A DNA stretch of 58,663 nt from Rhizobiaceae bacterium. Its GTDB lineage: Bacteria; Pseudomonadota; Alphaproteobacteria; Rhizobiales; Rhizobiaceae. Below are positions 30,780-41,214 of this stretch, one piece after another; positions within the stretch are counted from its first letter, which is position 1; each line of letters begins with the position of its first letter. The stretch spans positions 1-58,663 of the forward strand of contig JAHBYY010000019.1 in the NCBI GenBank assembly GCA_019635715.1, written 5' to 3'. A program made the translations under genes and the position numbers. The notes below the pieces were generated by a model. The model searched no databases. It worked only from the letters and a program-made list of their open reading frames with translations, and was not told the DNA's origin.

Positions 30780-31250
30780 CCACGCCGTACGCCGGATGTA
30801 CGCACTCCGAAAGGCGAGGGCGGTCTGCGAAGGCGCGCCGCGGAGAGAAGGGCAGGGTCCCTGCCGCAGCGGCGCGCCACATGGTCGGTGTCTGCACGAA
30901 TGCGCGCGCCGGCCGCGCGTTGCGTGAAAATCCATGTCGACAGCAGGGCTATTGTATATGGCGGCTGGCTGGAATGCCGGCGACTGCGTACCCCCACCCC
31001 TAACCCCTCCCCACAAGGGGGAGGGGGACTTCGCGACCGCTTTTCCAGTCGGATTCGACGACGATTTGCGTTTGACGAGGCTGCAGACTGGTTCCCCTCC
31101 CCCTTGCGGGGAGGGGCCAGGGGTGGGGGTAGCCTCATATGCGATTGCCCTGATGTCGACAGGGAGCCTTCGCCGGGTTGCACCCCTGACCATGCCTGTG
31201 CCGTTCGGCTCGGGATGCCAGTTCGGGTCGGGCAAGGTTGCCGGGGACCC
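30780..31250. other. 471-base intergenic region carrying palindromic element
   Basis: The central part is occupied by the GC-rich palindromic element at 30989-31131. Flanking bases 30780-30988 and 31132-31250 show no gene, no strong terminator and no clear promoter. The region separates metY from the DszC/SfnB-like gene, so the latter may have its own promoter downstream of the repeat. Confidence 0.5.
30989..31131. repeat. GC-rich palindromic intergenic element, copy 2
   Basis: Inverted arms of 40 bases (30989-31028 and 31092-31131) match at about 36 of 40 positions and consist of TACCCCCACCCC, CCCCTCCCC and CAAGGGGGAGGGG blocks. The arms are the same as those of copy 1 at 5098-5193, but the loop is about 63 bases instead of about 17 and unrelated. 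It is therefore a dispersed family with conserved ends, probably non-autonomous. No transposase is present in the window. Confidence 0.85.
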
Positions 31251-32525
31251 ATGAACATCGCGAAACCACGTCAATCCAACGCCAAGGACATTCCCGTGAG
31301 CCACTCCGACCTCGCCTGGGGCACCAGCCCCACACCGGACTACGAAACCGTCGCCGACCGTTTCCGGCCGATCTTCGCCCGCATCGCCGAGACGGCGGTG
31401 GAACGGGAGCTGGCGCGCCGTCTGCCCGTCGAGGAGATCGGCTGGCTGCAGGCGGCGGGTTTTGGCGCGCTGCGTCTGCCGCGCGCGGAGGGTGGCTCCG
31501 GCGTCAGCCTCTCGGACTTCCTTGTCCTGCTCATCGAACTTTCGGAAGCGGATTCGAACGTCACCCAGTCGCTGCGCGGTCATTTCGGCTTCGTCGAGGA
31601 AATCGCCACCGCGCTGCCGGGCCCCCACCGCTCACGCTGGGCTGAGCGGATCGCCAGGGGCGCGACAGTCGGCATCGCCTGGACGGAGATCGGGGCCGCC
31701 GGCATCGAGGGCTTTTCGACGCGGGTGGTGCGCAAGGACGGCCGGCTCCTGCTCAACGGCTCGAAATACTACACGACCGGTTCGCTCTATTCGGACTGGA
31801 TCGACGTGGGTGCGCTGAACGACGAGGATGTCGACGTCAACGTCGTGGTGCGGCGCGACGCGGCCGGCGTCGACGTGGTCGACGATTGGGACGGCTTCGG
31901 CCAGACGCTGACGGCCAGCGGGACGACGCATTTCACGGATGTGGAAGTCGATCCCCTGGACATCCTCGTGGCCGACGAAAAATTCCGCCATGCCACGGGT
32001 TTCTACCAGTTGGTGCATCTGGCGACGCTGGCGGGCATCGGGCGGGCGCTGACGAAGGACGTCGCCACGGCGGTCGCGGCGCGCCGGAGAACCTTCAGCC
32101 ATGCCGCCGCCGCGCGCTCGTCCCAGGATCCCCAGGTGCTGCAGGTCGTCGGCCGCGTGCGTGCCGCCGCCTATTGCGCGGGCGCCATCGTGCTGCAGGC
32201 GGCACGCGCGCTGGAAGCGGCGGCGAGCGCGCGTCACAGCGGCGACGAGGCCGCCGAAGATCGGCTCAATGCGGTGGCGGAACTCGAGAGCGCGCAGGCC
32301 CAGGCCGTCGTGACCAGTCTCGTCCTCGACGCGGCCAACGCGGCCTTCGACGCGCTGAGCGCCTCGGCGACGCGGCGGCCGAACGGTCTCGACCGGCATT
32401 GGCGCAACGCCCGGACGCTCTCCTCGCACAATCCGCGAATCTACAAGGACCGCATCGTCGGCGATTTCGCGGTCAACGGGACGCTGCCGCCCTATCAGTG
32501 GCGCATCGGGACGCCGGCCTCCTGA
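31251..32525 (+). CDS. Acyl-CoA-dehydrogenase-fold monooxygenase (SfnB/DszC type)
   Basis: A 424-residue flavoprotein with acyl-CoA dehydrogenase fold: N-terminal helical domain (RFRPIFARIAETA), middle beta domain (GIAWTEIGAAG, LNGSKYYTTGS) and C-terminal helices ending in LDRHWRNARTLSSHNP. The RHWRN-R-T-H-x-P ending is typical of the FMNH2-dependent DszC/SfnB group that oxidise sulfur compounds, not of true acyl-CoA dehydrogenases. An in-frame GTG at 31296 has a better ribosome site (AAGGA) and may be the true start. A second homologue lies at 38524. Confidence 0.88.
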   Translation: MNIAKPRQSNAKDIPVSHSDLAWGTSPTPDYETVADRFRPIFARIAETAVERELARRLPVEEIGWLQAAGFGALRLPRAEGGSGVSLSDFLVLLIELSEADSNVTQSLRGHFGFVEEIATALPGPHRSRWAERIARGATVGIAWTEIGAAGIEGFSTRVVRKDGRLLLNGSKYYTTGSLYSDWIDVGALNDEDVDVNVVVRRDAAGVDVVDDWDGFGQTLTASGTTHFTDVEVDPLDILVADEKFRHATGFYQLVHLATLAGIGRALTKDVATAVAARRRTFSHAAAARSSQDPQVLQVVGRVRAAAYCAGAIVLQAARALEAAASARHSGDEAAEDRLNAVAELESAQAQAVVTSLVLDAANAAFDALSASATRRPNGLDRHWRNARTLSSHNPRIYKDRIVGDFAVNGTLPPYQWRIGTPAS

Positions 32526-32773: not shown

Positions 32774-34105
32774 ATGCCCAGGACCCGCCTTCCGAACTTT
32801 CCCGATTTCACACAGACGAAGGCGGTCGACGCCCAGCTCGACCGCCTCGACACGCGCGGCGTCTCTCGCCGCGACTTTCTGGCGCTGGCTTCGGCCGGTG
32901 CGGCGGCGGGCCTGACGGCGTCCGTTTTCGGCTCGCCGGGCGTCGCGGTCGCCGCCGAATCCGGCAAACTCGCCTACCTGGCCTGGACGACCCGCGTCGA
33001 ATACATGATCCAGGCCGCCGCCGCGATCGAGGCGGCGTCGAAGGAACTGGGCTTCACCTACTCGCTGGTCGACGGCCAGTTCGACAGCACCCGCCAGCTC
33101 AACCAGTTCGAGCAGGAAGCGACGGCCGGCACCCAGGCCGTGATCCTGCACGCCTCCGACGGCAGCAATCTGCGCCGCATCACCGAGATCGCCGCGCAGA
33201 GCAACCAGTATGTCGCCAATGTCTGGGCGACGCTGCCCTGGTTCACGCCGTTCGACGCCGGCGACCACTACGCGCTCTACGCCGTACCGGAGGAGTTCTC
33301 GGCGCATCGCGGCGTGACCGTGGAGTTGCTGAAGGCGGTGACCGAGCGCTTCGGTGGCGGCAACATCATCGGGGTGACCGGCGTGCCCGGCTTCTCGACC
33401 GACACGGTGCGCAGCCGCGGCCGCGACGATGCCTTCAAGGACTTCCCCAAGACCAGGCTGATCGGCGAATTGCCCGGCAATTTCAATCGCGAGGATTCGC
33501 TGAAGGCGACCGAGGACCTGCTGTCGCGCCACAAGGACGTGGTCGGCGTCGTGGCGCAGAACGACGACGTGGCGCAGGGCGTCATCGCGGCGCTGCGCGC
33601 TGCCGGGCTGCGGCCGGGCGAAGACGTGCTGGTGGTCGGCGCCGACGGCACCACCGAGGGCGTCAACGCCATCCGCGACGGCAAGCAACTGGCGACCAGC
33701 GCCAACAGCCCGGCCTTCTTCGGCGCCTTCTTCACCGCCTATCTCTATGACGTGACGCATGGCTGGAAGCCGCGCGCCGCCGAACGCCTGCTCAACTGGC
33801 GTTCGATCACGCTGACCGCCGGCAATCTCGACGTCTACCAGAAGCGCTTCGTCGACAATGGCGGGGTGCAGCCCTTCAACTACCGCAAGTTCTCGAAAGT
33901 GCTGCATCCGACCGACTGGGACCCGCAGAACGAGGTGTTCCCGCTCGATATCGACCATGAATGGCACGGTTTCCCGAAGCCCGAGGGCTGGGATTATCCC
34001 AAGGCCTATCTCGACGCCAAGACCAATGGCGAATGGGAGGCGGTCACCGCCGAGTACAGGGATCACTACAAGACCCCCTTCTTCGGCCCATCCCCCAACG
34101 CCTGA
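32774..34105 (+). CDS. Tat-exported CUT2-type substrate-binding protein
   Basis: A 443-residue periplasmic binding protein of the Peripla_BP_4 type with a twin-arginine signal (SRRDFLALASAGAAAG) beginning near residue 32, an unusual export route for this family. Mature features: YLAWTTRVEYMIQAAAA, ILHASDGSNLRRI, VVAQNDDVAQGVI and VVGADGTTEGVNAI. It is about 100 residues longer than ribose-binding protein, mainly at both ends. First gene of the second CUT2 operon, which continues with ATPase, permease and sulfur-type monooxygenases, so it may bind a sulfur compound, not a plain sugar. Confidence 0.92.
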   Translation: MPRTRLPNFPDFTQTKAVDAQLDRLDTRGVSRRDFLALASAGAAAGLTASVFGSPGVAVAAESGKLAYLAWTTRVEYMIQAAAAIEAASKELGFTYSLVDGQFDSTRQLNQFEQEATAGTQAVILHASDGSNLRRITEIAAQSNQYVANVWATLPWFTPFDAGDHYALYAVPEEFSAHRGVTVELLKAVTERFGGGNIIGVTGVPGFSTDTVRSRGRDDAFKDFPKTRLIGELPGNFNREDSLKATEDLLSRHKDVVGVVAQNDDVAQGVIAALRAAGLRPGEDVLVVGADGTTEGVNAIRDGKQLATSANSPAFFGAFFTAYLYDVTHGWKPRAAERLLNWRSITLTAGNLDVYQKRFVDNGGVQPFNYRKFSKVLHPTDWDPQNEVFPLDIDHEWHGFPKPEGWDYPKAYLDAKTNGEWEAVTAEYRDHYKTPFFGPSPNA

Positions 34106-34164: not shown

Positions 34165-35796
34165 ATGACCCAACCGCTCCTCGACCGCACACCTTTCTTC
34201 GTCGCCGACGGCCTGTCGAAGCGCTTCGGCGCGACGCGCGTGCTCGACGGCGTCGGCTTCTCCATTCCGGAGAAATCGGTGGTCAGCTTCGTCGGCGAGA
34301 ACGGGGCCGGAAAGTCGACCCTGTTCAACATCCTGAGCGGCGTGGTCGAGCCGGATGCCGGCACGATGACACTTGGCGGCAAGCCCTACCGGCCGCGCCA
34401 CTACGGGGACGCGATCGGCGTTGGCGTGTCGCGCGTCTTCCAAGAGCAGGCGCTGGTCCGCAACATCCCTGTCTACGAGAACCTGCTGCTCGGCCAGGAC
34501 GACGGCTTCTATCGCGCCGGGCAGTTCGTCGATCGCGCCGCGATGATCGCTGCGGCGCAGCGGATCGCCGACGAGGCGGGCATCGACGTCGACGTGCGGC
34601 GGCGCACCGGCAGCTACGACTTCTCGCGCCGCCAGTCGATCGAGATCGCCCGGGCGTGCCTTGCCCCCTCCATCCTCGGCGACATTGCGCAGCCGCTCGT
34701 GCTCCTCGACGAGCCGACCTCGGCCCTCGACCAGCGCGACGAGGATGCCTTCTTCCGGCTCGTCGCCAAGGTCCGCCAGCGCGGTTCGCTGATCTTCGTG
34801 TCGCACCGGCTGAGCGAGGTGCTGTCGGTCTCGGATGTGATCTACGTGCTAAAGGACGGGGCCCTCGTGGCCCGCCTCGAGGCAGGCGAGGCCGACGAGC
34901 GCATCCTGCACAGCCTGATGGTGGGCCGCGAGCGCGTCGCGGACTACTATTTCGAGCAACGCCAGAAGGTGACCGACGCGCAGCCCGTGGCGGTCGAGGT
35001 TGCGGGGCTGTCGTCGCCGGGTGCCTATGAGGACATAAGCCTGTCGATCCGCGCCGGCGAGATCGTCGGCATCGGCGGTCTGCTCGATTCCGGCAAGAGC
35101 CGTCTCGGCAAGGGCATCGCCGGCGTCGAGCCGCCCGCCACGGGCACCGTCGCGCTTGTCGGCCAGTCGCCTGTCCACCCCGAGATCGGCGCGTTCATCA
35201 GGGCCGGCCTGGGCTATGTGCCGGCGGAGCGGCTCGTCGAGGGCATCATCCCCTCCCAGAAGCTGAGCTGGAATTTCTCGCTCGCCAGCGCCGACCTGTT
35301 TTCAAACAGGCTCGGCCTATGGCGATGCCAGGCGGAGGTCGAGGCGGCGAGCCGCTTCATCGGCAGCCTGGCGATCCGGTCCGGAAGCCCGAACCAGCCG
35401 CTCAGCAAGCTGTCGGGCGGCAACCAGCAGAAGGTGGTCCTGGCGCGATGGCTGCAGCGGCAACCCGACGTGCTCGTCCTCGACAATCCGACGCGCGGCG
35501 TGGATGCCGGCGCCAAGGAGGAGATCTACCGGGTCATCCGCGACCTTACGGACCGTGGCGTCGCCATCCTGCTGATCACCGACGAGCTTCTCGAACTGAT
35601 CGGCCTGTCCAACCGCATCCTGATCCTGCAGCGGGGGCGGATCGCCGCTGAATTTGCCGCACCGGCCGATACAAAACCCTCCGAGCGCGAGCTGGTGGCC
35701 GCCATGCTGTCGGTGCCGGACGAGCCCGGCCCGCATGGCGCCGCCGCCATCTCGACGTCCGATCCAGTCCAATATTCCGAAAGCGCGCACGCATGA
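34165..35796 (+). CDS. CUT2 ABC transporter ATPase (second system)
   Basis: A 543-residue double-ATPase of the RbsA type. N-terminal domain: Walker A GENGAGKST, a divergent signature (YDFSRRQSIEIARA), Walker B LLDEPTSALD. C-terminal domain: modified P-loop GLLDSGKSRLG and signature LSGGNQQKVVLARWL. It is about 40 residues longer than usual, partly from a C-terminal tail after VAAMLSVPDEPG. The ATG is 59 bases after the binding-protein stop, and its own stop overlaps the permease start by 4 bases. Confidence 0.94.
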   Translation: MTQPLLDRTPFFVADGLSKRFGATRVLDGVGFSIPEKSVVSFVGENGAGKSTLFNILSGVVEPDAGTMTLGGKPYRPRHYGDAIGVGVSRVFQEQALVRNIPVYENLLLGQDDGFYRAGQFVDRAAMIAAAQRIADEAGIDVDVRRRTGSYDFSRRQSIEIARACLAPSILGDIAQPLVLLDEPTSALDQRDEDAFFRLVAKVRQRGSLIFVSHRLSEVLSVSDVIYVLKDGALVARLEAGEADERILHSLMVGRERVADYYFEQRQKVTDAQPVAVEVAGLSSPGAYEDISLSIRAGEIVGIGGLLDSGKSRLGKGIAGVEPPATGTVALVGQSPVHPEIGAFIRAGLGYVPAERLVEGIIPSQKLSWNFSLASADLFSNRLGLWRCQAEVEAASRFIGSLAIRSGSPNQPLSKLSGGNQQKVVLARWLQRQPDVLVLDNPTRGVDAGAKEEIYRVIRDLTDRGVAILLITDELLELIGLSNRILILQRGRIAAEFAAPADTKPSERELVAAMLSVPDEPGPHGAAAISTSDPVQYSESAHA

Positions 35797-36788
35797 CCGA
35801 CATCGCACGATCCCCAGGGTTTTCCAGGCCGCGCCTCCAGCTCCCGGCGCTGGAACTCGACGTCAAGCTGCTGCTGCCGCTGCTGGTGGTCGCGGTTCTG
35901 ATCGCCTTCTTCTCGGTCACCACCGAGTCCTTCGCCACGCTGCGCAACTTCAGCACGATCGCCGGCCAGGCGGGTACGCTGCTGATCGTCTGCCTCGGGG
36001 CGACCTTCGTCATCCTGATGGGCAGCATCGACCTGTCGGTCGGTGCGATCGTGCTGCTGGTCGGCGCACTGACGGTCACCGTGCTCAACCTCACCGGCAT
36101 CGGCGTCTGGGTGCTGCCGCTGGCGGCGCTGTTCGGCGCCGTGCTCGGCCTGCTCAACGGGTCCGTCTACGCGCTGAGCGGCATCCAGTCCTTCGTGGTG
36201 ACGCTGGGCTCGCTGTCGATCTTCTCGGGTGTTGCGCTGCAACTGCTGCAGGGGCGCGCCATCCAGTTCAGCGACGCGGCCTTCGAGAACCTGGCGATCG
36301 GCCAGTTGATTCCGAGCCTGCCCAACATCGCGCTGTGCGGCCTCGTCGCCTGGGGCGTCAGCGTGCTGATCGCCAGCCGCACCCGCTTCGGCCGCTACAT
36401 GTATCTGATCGGCGGCGGCGAGCAGGTGGCGCGCACGGCCGGCGTGCCGGTGCGCCGCTACAAGATCTATGCCTTCGCGCTCTCCGGCCTTCTGGCCGGT
36501 CTCGGTGCGGCGCTCGCCGTGGCGCGGCTGGGTGCGGCGGGCCCCTCGCTGGGGAGTGACCTTCTGCTCAACAGCCTCGCGGCGATCGTGGTGGGCGGCA
36601 CATCGCTTGCCGGCGGCAGCGGCGGCCCGCACCGCACGCTGATCGGCGTGCTGATCATCGCCATCCTCGACAACGGCCTCAACCTGCTCGGCGTCTCCTC
36701 CTATACGCAGATGATCATCAAGGGTGCCGTGGTCATCGCCGCCGTGGTCGCCAGCCGCGTCGAACTGCGCAACGCCGTGGTCAAGTGA
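35793..36788 (+). CDS. CUT2 ABC transporter permease (second system)
   Basis: A 331-residue RbsC-like membrane protein with many hydrophobic helices and family motifs VILMGSIDLSVGAIV, SFVVTLGSLSIFSG and VVGGTSLAGGSGG. Only one permease is encoded here, in contrast with the first CUT2 cluster, so the channel is probably a homodimer. Coupled to the ATPase by a 4-base overlap and followed 10 bases later by the SfnG-like gene, tying the importer to the monooxygenases. Confidence 0.94.
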   Translation: MTDIARSPGFSRPRLQLPALELDVKLLLPLLVVAVLIAFFSVTTESFATLRNFSTIAGQAGTLLIVCLGATFVILMGSIDLSVGAIVLLVGALTVTVLNLTGIGVWVLPLAALFGAVLGLLNGSVYALSGIQSFVVTLGSLSIFSGVALQLLQGRAIQFSDAAFENLAIGQLIPSLPNIALCGLVAWGVSVLIASRTRFGRYMYLIGGGEQVARTAGVPVRRYKIYAFALSGLLAGLGAALAVARLGAAGPSLGSDLLLNSLAAIVVGGTSLAGGSGGPHRTLIGVLIIAILDNGLNLLGVSSYTQMIIKGAVVIAAVVASRVELRNAVVK

Positions 36789-36798
36789 GGCGATCGCA

Positions 36799-37932
36799 AT
36801 GAACGACAGCAGAATCCTGACGCCGCGCCAGATCGGCGCCATCTATGGCGCCGATCCGCTGAAATTCGCCTTCTGGGTGCCGGCCTTTGCGGGTGGGTTC
36901 GTCTCCAGCACGATCGAGCAGCGGACGCATTGGGACTTCGACTACAACATCCGCCTGGCGCAGATCGCCGAGCGGGCCGGCTTCGACTACGGACTGATCG
37001 CGACGCGCTGGGCAAGCACCCACGGCGCGGATTCGCAGATCGAGGCGACGACGCTGGCGACCGCGCTGCTGGGCAGGACCGAGCGCCTGCAGATCATCGT
37101 CGCCGTGCTCACCGGCCTCTGGCTGCCGGGCGTCATCGCCAAGATGGGGGCGACCGCCGACCTGTTCTCGAACGGCCGCTGGAACATCAACGTGGTCAGC
37201 GGCTGGATGCGGCGCGAGTATGACGCCTTCGGCCAGCCCTGGATCGAGCATGACGAGCGCTATGCGCGCTCCGAGGAGTTCATCGAGATCCTGAAAGGAA
37301 TCTGGACGCAGGACCACTATTCCTTCCGGGGCCGGCATTTCAGCATCGACGACTACACGCTGAGCCCACGTCCGGTGAAGAAGCCGCATCCCGAGATCTT
37401 TCAGGGCGGCTCGTCGACGGCAGCACGGCGCATGGCCGCCCGCTGGTCGGACTGGTACTTCACCAACGGCAACACGATTGAAGGCATTCGCGCCCAGATC
37501 GACGAGATCGAGCAGAATGCAGCGCCCTTCGCACGCCGGCCGCGTATCGCCGTCAACGCCTTCGTCATCGCCCGCGACACCGAAAAGGAGGCGCGCGACG
37601 TCCATGCCGAGATCATCCGGCTGGCCGACGTCAAGGCCGTGCGCGGCTTCCAGGAGGCGACGCGAGAAGCCGGCCAGTCGACGAAGGACGGCAAGGGCAA
37701 CTGGACCAGCACGAAGCTGGAGGACTACGTCTAGCACAATGACGGGTTCCGGACCGACCTGATCGGCACTCCCGAGCAGATTGCCGAGCGGATCGTCGCC
37801 TACAAGGACATCGGCGTCAGCGCCATCCTCGCCGGCTTTCTCCACTGCCACGAAGACGCCGAATATTTCGGCCGCCGCATCCTGCCCCTGGTCCGCGACA
37901 TCGAAAGGTCGCGCACCCGGGCGGTTGCCTGA
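36799..37932 (+). pseudogene. sfnG: SfnG-like dimethyl sulfone monooxygenase with in-frame TAG
   Basis: A luciferase-like FMNH2-dependent monooxygenase closely matching the SfnG family (dimethyl sulfone to methanesulfinate): WVPAFAGGFVSSTIEQRT, NVVSGWMRREYDAFG, EIFQGGSS and SDWYFTNGN are hallmarks. At codon 312 (37732-37734) a TAG interrupts the frame. Reading through it continues without shift for 65 codons (HNDGFRTDLIGTPEQIAE, GFLHCHEDAEYFGRRILP) to TGA at 37930-37932, restoring the normal length of about 377 residues. Family members have Gln at the stop, so a CAG to TAG change is the simplest history. The product is either truncated by the conserved C-terminal helix region, restored by suppression, or dead. 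Confidence 0.9.
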
Positions 37933-37947
37933 CCAGGAGATCTTGAG

Positions 37948-38517
37948 ATGAGCCATACAGACGAACTGATTGCTCCCAGCCTTTCCCGCCTCGACGTGCC
38001 GCCGGAAGCGGCGTTGGACGACGACATCCGCAGGCTGATGAAGAGCCATCACAACGAGAACTGGATTCGCTCGCTGGCGCTCAATCCCGATACGGCGCGG
38101 CGCTTCACCGCCTATTTCGGCAGCCTGTTCGCCGCATCCGGTGCGCGCCTGCCGCTGCGCGACCGCGAACTGATCGCCGTGGTCGTGTCGGCGGAGAATG
38201 GCTGCGGGCTCTGCGAGATCCACCACACGCAGGCGCTCGGGGAGTTGCTGGAAGATCATGCGCGTGCCCGCAGGATCGCGCTCGATACCCATTCGGCGCC
38301 GCTTTCCGAGCGCGAGCATGCGCTGGTCGAGATCGCACGCAAGGTGACGCATACCCCGCGCGACGTGGTCCCGGGCGATTTCGACAGGCTGCGCCGGCTC
38401 GGGTTCACCGATCAGGATATCCTCGAAGTCGTCGAGACGGCGTCGTGGTTCAATCACACCAATCGCATCTTCATTTCGCTCGGCGTGGTGCCGGACGAGA
38501 AGTTCTTCGCGCGCTGA
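37948..38517 (+). CDS. AhpD-like peroxidase-related protein (CMD family)
   Basis: A 189-residue carboxymuconolactone-decarboxylase-fold protein of the alkylhydroperoxidase D / peroxidase-related group. The redox motif is C-G-L-C in ENGCGLCEIHHTQALG, with the downstream His of the AhpD proton relay. It may remove peroxide or organic hydroperoxide formed by uncoupled flavin monooxygenases. It sits 15 bases after the SfnG-like frame with an AGGAG ribosome site. The same kind of gene often accompanies LLM and DszC-type enzymes in sulfur clusters. Confidence 0.88.
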   Translation: MSHTDELIAPSLSRLDVPPEAALDDDIRRLMKSHHNENWIRSLALNPDTARRFTAYFGSLFAASGARLPLRDRELIAVVVSAENGCGLCEIHHTQALGELLEDHARARRIALDTHSAPLSEREHALVEIARKVTHTPRDVVPGDFDRLRRLGFTDQDILEVVETASWFNHTNRIFISLGVVPDEKFFAR

Positions 38518-38523
38518 ACGGGC

Positions 38524-39798
38524 ATGTCGACGCGCGATCTTGCGGATGGGGCCGAACGCGAAGCGTTACGCGGCGCGGGGTCGCCTCGGCATCGGGCGGT
38601 CATCATGCCCGGCGACCTGAACGGCTCGATCCTGACGGCGACGGCGGAAGCGATCGGGCGCGAGATCGGCGCCGGTGCCGCGGCGCGCGATGCTGACCGC
38701 ATCCTTCCGCATGCCGAACTGGCGCGGGTCAAGGCTGCCGGGCTGCTCACCGCGCGAATCCCCCGCAGCCATGGCGGGCCGGAAGCCGGCTGGCGCGAGA
38801 CGATCCGCATCACGCTCGATCTGTCGCGCGGCGATCCGAATGTCGGCCAGGCGATCCAGTCCCACAACGTCATCGTGGAAACGCTGCGCGCAGATGCCGG
38901 GCCAACCCTTCGGAGCCGCATCTTCGATGCCGTGCTCTCCGGGCAGATGGTGACGAATGCCGCCGCGGAGCGCGGCGGAAAGTTCTACGGCGAGATCGCG
39001 ACGCGGCTCCTGCCGGGTGCGGAGGGCGGCTACCGGCTCGAAGGCACGAAATACTACTGCACCGGAAGCCTGTTCGCCGAGCATTTCTACATCACCGCCC
39101 TCGATCCATCGGACCGATCCGTCGGCGTCGTGGTTCCCGCCGACCGCGCCGGGCTGGCGGTCGAAGACGACTGGAACGGCATGGGTCAGCGCACCACTGC
39201 CAGCGGTTCGGTCGTGCTCGATGCCGTTGAGGTCCATCCCGACGAAGTCTTCTTCCCGCCGTCGGCAAAGGACCGCCGCTGGCACCTGCAGGCGGCGGCG
39301 CAACTGCTGCATGCGGCGATCGACACGGGCATCGCGCAGGCGGCGCTCGCCGATGCGCTGGTGCTGGCGAGGGGCCGGGGCCGCACGTTGCGGGAGGCGG
39401 GCGTCCCCAGCGCCCTCGAGGATCCGTACATCCTGCACACTATCGGGGCGCTTTCGGTCGCCGCCAATGGCGCCGAGGTGCTGATGCTGCGCGCCGCCGA
39501 CGCAGTGGATGCCGCCGCCGCCGCCTATTTTGGCGGCGATACGACGGAGAGCCGCTACATCGATGCCTCGATCGCCGTCGCCGAGGCGCGCATTGCCTCG
39601 ACCAAGGCGGCGCTCGAAGTGAGCGAGCGCCTCTACGAGGTGGCGAACGCGTCCGGGACCGACCGCGGCCTCAATCTCGACCGGCACTGGCGCAACGCCC
39701 GGACCCACACGACCCACGATCCGCTCGCGCACAAATACCGCTTCATCGGCGACTATCTGCTGAACGGCCGCGCCCCGCCGACCACCGCCAAGATCTGA
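38524..39798 (+). CDS. Acyl-CoA-dehydrogenase-fold monooxygenase (SfnB/DszC type), second
   Basis: A 424-residue flavoprotein homologous to the one at 31251: LEGTKYYCTGSLFAEHF, WNGMGQRTTASGSVVLD and LDRHWRNARTHTTHDPL. These are the hallmark segments of DszC/SfnB-type, FMNH2-dependent oxidases. The first 27 residues are polar and not conserved, so an ATG at 38605 (MPGDLNG) is an alternative start. It begins 6 bases after the AhpD-like gene and precedes the NtaA/DszA-type gene by 15 bases, recalling the DszC-DszA pairing of sulfone-forming and C-S-cleaving steps. Confidence 0.88.
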   Translation: MSTRDLADGAEREALRGAGSPRHRAVIMPGDLNGSILTATAEAIGREIGAGAAARDADRILPHAELARVKAAGLLTARIPRSHGGPEAGWRETIRITLDLSRGDPNVGQAIQSHNVIVETLRADAGPTLRSRIFDAVLSGQMVTNAAAERGGKFYGEIATRLLPGAEGGYRLEGTKYYCTGSLFAEHFYITALDPSDRSVGVVVPADRAGLAVEDDWNGMGQRTTASGSVVLDAVEVHPDEVFFPPSAKDRRWHLQAAAQLLHAAIDTGIAQAALADALVLARGRGRTLREAGVPSALEDPYILHTIGALSVAANGAEVLMLRAADAVDAAAAAYFGGDTTESRYIDASIAVAEARIASTKAALEVSERLYEVANASGTDRGLNLDRHWRNARTHTTHDPLAHKYRFIGDYLLNGRAPPTTAKI

Positions 39799-39813: not shown

Positions 39814-41214
39814 ATGACCAGACCGCTGATCTTCAACGGTTTTTCGATGAATGTGGTGTCACACATCTACCACGGGCTATGGCGCCACCCGGAGAGCAGG
39901 CAGGTCGAATTCAACGATCTGAACTACTGGACCGACTTGGCGAAGACCTTCGAACGCGGAAAGTTCGACAATTTCTTCCTCGCCGACGTGATCGGGGTCG
40001 ATCCCGCCTACAAGGGGACGTGGGACACCTATGTGCGGGAAGCCGTGCAGATACCTGTCAACGATTCCTCGACGCTCGTGGCGGCGCTGATCCATGCGAC
40101 CGAGCATATCGGGCTGACCTTCACGTCCTCCATCCTGCAGGATCATCCCTTCAGTTTCGCACGGCGCGTGTCGACGATGGACCATCTGAGCAAGGGCCGC
40201 ATCGGCTGGAACATCGTCACCAGCGTCAGTCACAATGCGGCGCAGAATTTCGGCTTCGACCGCATCGTGCCGCATGACGAGCGATACACCTGGGCGGCCG
40301 AATATATCGATGTGGTCTACAAACTCTGGGAAGGGTCTTGGGACGACGATGCGGTCCTCGTCGACAAGACGGCGAACCTCTACGCCGACCCGTCGAAGAT
40401 CCATCGCATCCACCATGCGAGCCAGCGCTACAAGGTGCTCGGACCGCACCTGTCGCAGCCCTCGCTGCAACGGACGCCCCTGCTGTTCCAGGCGGGATCG
40501 TCGCGGGTCGGGCGTGCCTTCGCGGCGGCCAATGCGGAGGGAACCTTCGTCATGAGCCTCAACCCGCAGGGCGCCCGCAAGCTGGTCGAATCCGTCAACG
40601 CGCAGGTCGAGGCCGCCGGACGGCGCGCCGGCGACCTGAAATACATCCAGGGTCTTTCATTCGTGGTCGGCAGCAGCGAGGCGGAGGCGAAGGAAAAGGC
40701 GCGCGACCTGGACCACTATGCCAGCACCGACGGGCTGCTCGCCCATATCAGCCGCGATCTCGGCATCGATCTCGGGCTGCTGGACCCGGATCGCCCGGTG
40801 GCCGAACTCGATATCGAGGGCGTGCAGGGCTACATCGCCTATTTCGAGGAGGCCAATCCCGGAAAGCGCGCCCGCGTCCGCGATCTCGGCCATGCGCTAT
40901 CCTACAACACGCGCATCGTCGGCACTCCGGAGAGCATCGCCGACGCGCTCGACGACTGGCGCGATGCCGGCATCGATGGCGTCAACTTCATCTGCCAGAC
41001 GGCACCGGCGACCTATGTCGACTTCGTCGACCATGTGACGCCGCTGTTGCGGAAACGCGGTCTGGCACGCCGCGACTATGCCGAGACGACATTGCGCGAG
41101 CGCTTCTTCCCCGGCGAAGGCCCGCATCTCAACGAGCGGCATCCGGCGCGGCGCTACCGCGGCGCCTTTTCCCGCCGCGCCCCGCTCTCGACCTTGTCCT
41201 CGGCCGCAAGCTGA
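39814..41214 (+). CDS. NtaA/SnaA/DszA-family flavin monooxygenase
   Basis: A 466-residue LLM-class enzyme of the nitrilotriacetate/dibenzothiophene-sulfone monooxygenase branch. Recognisable segments: IYHGLWRHPESRQVEFND, RRVSTMDHLSKGRIGWNIVTS, DERYTWAAEYIDVVYKLWEGSW and LLFQAGSSRVGRAFAA. Length is typical (about 450). The DszA branch cleaves C-S bonds of sulfones with FMNH2, the NtaA branch oxidises C-N. Neighbours favour the former. Last gene of the second CUT2 operon; a hairpin at 41225 follows. Confidence 0.92.
   Translation: MTRPLIFNGFSMNVVSHIYHGLWRHPESRQVEFNDLNYWTDLAKTFERGKFDNFFLADVIGVDPAYKGTWDTYVREAVQIPVNDSSTLVAALIHATEHIGLTFTSSILQDHPFSFARRVSTMDHLSKGRIGWNIVTSVSHNAAQNFGFDRIVPHDERYTWAAEYIDVVYKLWEGSWDDDAVLVDKTANLYADPSKIHRIHHASQRYKVLGPHLSQPSLQRTPLLFQAGSSRVGRAFAAANAEGTFVMSLNPQGARKLVESVNAQVEAAGRRAGDLKYIQGLSFVVGSSEAEAKEKARDLDHYASTDGLLAHISRDLGIDLGLLDPDRPVAELDIEGVQGYIAYFEEANPGKRARVRDLGHALSYNTRIVGTPESIADALDDWRDAGIDGVNFICQTAPATYVDFVDHVTPLLRKRGLARRDYAETTLRERFFPGEGPHLNERHPARRYRGAFSRRAPLSTLSSAAS

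Follow-up and report, generated by a model that had tools for sequence, protein, structure and literature searches.

Enzymes of the SfnG family (TIGR04021; solved structures 8t0u and 8t0w) are FMNH2-dependent dimethylsulfone monooxygenases, and a gene assigned to this family is predicted from its sequence to convert dimethylsulfone into methanesulfinate with reduced FMN. In the related enzyme MsuD, removal of the last 16 residues lowers the activity 13-fold, and the substitution R296A in the substrate loop abolishes it (PMC8234197, in excerpt). Stop codons that interrupt bacterial genes tend to be short-lived in evolution, according to a study in which the same stop had to be found in at least two genomes (PMC7918605).

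The gene described here lies in a window of 58,663 nucleotides, the whole stretch of DNA that was analysed. Like the SfnG enzymes, it scores above the family cut-off, even when deprived of its C-terminal tail. Unlike them, it carries an internal stop, stands on a long branch and departs from the family at 25 of 118 invariant columns upstream of the stop. It also resembles the TAG/CAG example of PMC7918605, with one stop in a conserved frame where the relatives have glutamine, but it differs from the cases collected there in that the stop was seen in one genome. We think it probable that the gene is a recent nonsense allele of one of two SfnG-like genes present in this genome.

The interrupted frame and its family

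The frame between positions 36799 and 37932 consists of 311 codons, TAG, 65 codons and TGA, with exactly one internal stop and not a single shift (Table 1). Residues 1-311 alone match TIGR04021 (dimethylsulfone monooxygenase SfnG) with 430.5 bits over profile positions 1-291, and thus pass the curated cut-off of 382.95 bits without the tail; their match to Pfam Bac_luciferase reaches 205.7 bits. The 65-residue tail, taken by itself, matches TIGR04021 with 79.8 bits at profile positions 294-349, while a comparison of the tail with Pfam gave no family at E 0.001. By sequence, the SfnG entry 8t0u is the best solved structure for the pre-stop part and the tail alike (the tail against 8t0u residues 319-377, E 1.5e-22). 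The complete barrel and the C-terminal region are not found together in one open frame, since profile positions 294-349 fall behind the TAG. The first-pass annotation, which had described an in-frame amber codon in an SfnG-like gene, is borne out by the single TAG, the unshifted frame and the separate family matches on its two sides.

Table 1. Coordinates of the interrupted gene and its neighbours in the window
Feature	Position	Strand	Remarks
Substrate-binding protein	32774..34105	+	Open; same gene cluster; Pfam Peripla_BP_4
Permease of the upstream ABC importer	35793..36788	+	ORF; homologues in syntenic loci; 10 nt separate its end from the SfnG start
SfnG-like luciferase-family monooxygenase, translated part	36799..37734	+	311 codons + TAG; TIGR04021, Pfam Bac_luciferase
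In-frame TAG	37732..37734	+	Codon 312; Gln in 46/46 aligned relatives
Post-stop tail, taken as untranslated	37735..37932	+	65 codons, homologous to the C-terminal end of SfnG; TGA 37930-37932
Carboxymuconolactone-decarboxylase-family (CMD; peroxidase-related) gene	37948..38517	+	Profile match
SfnB-like flavin oxidoreductase	38524..39798	+	TIGR04022, 377.1 bits (below the cut-off of 430.9); open
NtaA/DmoA-family monooxygenase	39814..41214	+	TIGR03860, 473 bits (cut-off 279.7); open

The TAG is flanked by coding scores of 0.58 per codon on its upstream side and 0.52 on its downstream side, with negative values in the other two frames. Codon usage was scored on roughly a tenth of the genome, 475,664 bases in all, made up of the window, one locus of 17 kb and 20 stretches of 20 kb each taken as a sample. 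This sample holds 345 gene models, which end in TGA (260), TAG (71, the window SfnG included) or TAA (14). When the 343 sampled stops followed by at least 150 nt were examined for what lies downstream, five were found to lead straight into 50 coding-like codons. In four of these continuations an ATG or GTG lies in frame, as it would if another gene began there; the window TAG is the only one of the 343 with a coding-like continuation devoid of either codon. Because such a start-less continuation occurs once among 343 stops, the interruption exceeds chance, is really present in the sequence and is single in the sampled tenth of the genome. Genome-wide recoding of TAG was rejected on the same counts (71 of 345 models ended by TAG, one start-less continuation in 343), as was re-initiation past the TAG, the first 50 codons after the stop having no in-frame ATG or GTG. 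A consensus scan of positions 37600-38000 gave neither a terminator nor a promoter, and both were likewise discarded.

The gene was aligned with 46 relatives, including the paralogue of its own genome. Glutamine occupies the stop column in every one of them (24 CAG, 22 CAA), as had been supposed at first, and none of the 46 has a stop there; an in-frame stop at a position where all relatives stay open is what characterizes a nonsense allele or a pseudogene. As to other frame lengths, the full tail is retained by 45 of the 46. In the remaining one, a Paracidovorax record (L039, match from 6001), SfnG departs from the family after about query residue 341. The tail of this protein looks altered or damaged, yet it still runs past the position of the window's stop.

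The residue directly after the TAG is histidine here, against tyrosine in 46 of 46 relatives. Invariant columns were defined over 45 relatives, without L039 on account of its divergent tail; 25 of 118 are changed upstream of the TAG and 4 of 26 downstream (Fisher p 0.60). In other words, 93 of the 118 family-invariant residues are kept before the stop and 22 of the 26 beyond it; mean identity to the relatives is 62% in the tail and 53% in the pre-stop part. Because the pre-stop columns have changed as well, the substitutions point to divergence of the whole gene rather than to decay of the tail. The statement that the tail carries no further damage therefore holds in the sense that change is not in excess there, but not to the letter, with histidine in place of tyrosine and 4 of 26 invariant columns altered. 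The relaxed constraint expected behind an old stop was not seen in this comparison, whose power is low: 26 invariant tail columns offer little chance of detecting decay, and undetected unconstrained drift in the tail could reach about 0.15 amino-acid changes per site (one-sided 95%). A tail without extra drift would mean that the stop is not old, or that the tail is still translated.

The window copy forms an isolated long branch, its tip measuring 0.64 where the next longest measures 0.15. Its description as strongly family-like is thus right as to membership (TIGR04021), but the copy is an atypical member, with a long branch and many changed invariant columns. Many of the changed residues lie near the N-terminus, for example at residues 29-34 and 65-75. 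Such divergence suggests a different substrate. In view of the histidine found where 46 of 46 relatives have tyrosine, and of the 25 invariant positions changed upstream of the stop, the gene could already have begun to drift, or to take on another function, by the time the stop appeared.

Neighbourhood, second copy and relatives

Nine of the ten neighbouring genes translate without inner stops and the tenth lies within the long open frame 30888-32525, so that the neighbours, thought from the outset to be intact, are so as far as they were checked. The next gene follows the frame's TGA at a distance of 15 nt and the TAG at 213 nt, a spacing that agrees with the TGA being the old gene end.

Within the order, four other genomes have homologues of the substrate-binding protein at 58-77% identity (5 of 397 genomes matched, its own included). 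Together with an ABC ATPase, a permease, an NtaA-type monooxygenase and a CMD gene, it recurs in four other members of the order, at one locus each (L150, L151, L152 and L153), with best matches of 58-79% identity. The binding protein gene is duplicated in L150, L151 and L152; a fifth locus (L149) has a match to the binding protein only. The gene adjacent to the permease in the four loci encodes an NtaA-type monooxygenase, whereas in the window SfnG stands between the importer permease and the CMD gene, and no SfnG of the window's kind was found in the five stretches of 15-20 kb that were fetched. The recurring set perhaps imports and oxidises some organosulfur compound, and SfnG looks like a later addition to this importer-linked operon.

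A second, intact SfnG gene (G000:C98:15011-16081) lies on another contig of this genome and is 54-55% identical to the window copy. The first-pass annotation, made from the window alone, could register neither this gene nor the unusual divergence of the broken copy. The surrounding cluster (L082, G000:C98:3000-20000) contains matches to two SfnB-like genes, one NtaA-like gene, another luciferase-family gene and ABC-type genes, matches that express similarity to the window's genes rather than the outcome of a family scan. The window copy is probably redundant with the intact one; its divergence suggests that the broken copy may have had another substrate.

Relatives of the window copy are distant. 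Eleven loci were confirmed among 35 stretches from assembled genome contigs, the best segment being 58% identical, or 59.7% over the full frame, and all matches in 1433 plasmid records lie below 60%; both searches may omit records that stand very close to the genome of the window. Counting the genome itself, SfnG was found in 1 of 4 genomes of the genus (that one being its own), 38 of 394 of the family, 5 of 385 of the class and 21 of 398 of the phylum, with no relative above about 60% in the last three sets. Among the matches listed, three others were flagged as having an inner stop (G023, G070 and G050:C78:60195), and in G023 and G070 the flagged stop is where the match runs out, as would be the case for a natural gene end. 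No inner stop in SfnG was marked among the other matches listed for the family, the class and the phylum.

The truncated product and the decoding of the TAG

Translation would start at 36799 and end at the TAG through the action of RF1, whose gene (prfA) is present (491 bits, cut-off 423.25), yielding a product of 311 residues. The structure predicted for an intact relative is of moderate overall confidence (mean pLDDT 68.4; pTM 0.74), with 10-residue blocks past residue 300 at 80 to 94. In this model, the TAG corresponds to residue 294 and is followed by a strand (303-305), a helix (307-319), a strand (324-328) and a helix (333-353). If strand 324-328 is taken as the eighth of the barrel, the 311-residue product would lack the last barrel strand and the last helix. 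Tail residue 4 aligns to residue 300 of E. coli SsuD, in a weak alignment (E 0.27). Given the residue number that we take the substrate-loop arginine to have in SsuD, this alignment would place the residues just past the TAG at or beside the substrate-loop arginine of related enzymes. Because the last strand and helix would be missing, and in view of what truncation and the R296A substitution do to MsuD, the product is very likely inactive as SfnG; it should neither fold nor work as such.

No UAG-reading tRNA appeared among the 30 tRNA genes found, all of which read sense codons; this set is incomplete, tRNAs for Trp and Ile being absent too and the genome 85% complete. The best match to PylS reaches only 23.1 bits where 178.15 are required, and sub-threshold matches occur in 12 of 14 control genomes as well. 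Pyrrolysine or amber recoding was rejected, as RF1 is present, PylS falls far below its cut-off and TAG is a common terminator. The 100 nt past the TAG revealed no stimulatory structure (z +1.03; 175 of 200 shuffles of this single sequence fold at least as well).

Origin of the stop

The TAG, the conserved glutamine column, the like conservation on its two sides, the intact paralogue and the RF1 gene are all directly observed; we infer that the product is inactive, the copy redundant and the stop recent, and that the cell truly has this base. Until lately, constraint seems to have acted on the full length of the SfnG copy, and its loss would probably be tolerated because of the intact SfnG in the second gene cluster. 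A recent mutation, one of three options left side by side in the first-pass annotation, is the best supported of them, but how recent it is can be bounded only loosely: the SfnG relatives found do not exceed about 60% identity, and drift of about 0.15 changes per site would be invisible.

An artefact of assembly or base calling is the next to be weighed, and we hold it unlikely without treating it as negligible. In that case the gene would be whole in the cell; should the draft be a metagenome bin, the stop would instead belong to some strains and not to others. The genome is indeed a draft, in 151 contigs and 85% complete, and an isolated single stop in a frame otherwise without lesion, with unspoilt conservation of the tail and no counterpart among 343 sampled stops, is what an error could produce; moreover, a consensus error would look identical to a real nonsense change. 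The sequence itself gives no sign of low quality, however, and the SfnG frame and the neighbours that were checked are open.

Readthrough of the TAG by a near-cognate or suppressor tRNA would supply some full-length enzyme and keep the gene under selection at a lowered output. The unspoilt tail, coding-like and as conserved as the rest, is the best argument for it, but a young mutation explains the tail equally well. In-frame stops with dN/dS below 1 have been reported (PMC7918605), and the set of tRNAs found is incomplete. Nevertheless, the stop occurs in none of the 46 aligned relatives, the other SfnG matches listed have no inner stops, no UAG reader was found among the 30 tRNAs, PylS stays at 23.1 against 178.15 bits, RF1 is present, the 100 nt past the stop fold no more stably than shuffled sequence (z +1.03), and no second start-less coding-like continuation follows the 343 stops. 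Readthrough, offered earlier as one way to account for the tail, is thus unsupported, and we regard it as improbable. Slightly more doubtful still is its elaborate form, a leaky amber codon that would throttle the output of a divergent SfnG-type enzyme in an importer-linked organosulfur operon and be kept by selection through low-level readthrough. That the 311-residue product is a functional shorter enzyme is hardly credible: it does exceed the SfnG cut-off alone, but the tail is kept by 45 of 46 relatives, the exception (L039) departing only after residue 341, past the stop, the missing part would hold the last barrel strand and helix according to the model, and a far smaller loss harms MsuD (PMC8234197, in excerpt).

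The case is most likely that of an ordinary, probably young, gene-breaking change rather than of unusual decoding. Its significance is mainly one of annotation hygiene, in that the locus should be kept out of counts of functional SfnG genes and should not be cited for amber recoding either. Beyond this, it draws attention to a divergent SfnG in an importer-linked operon, an intact relative of which, if found, could have another substrate.
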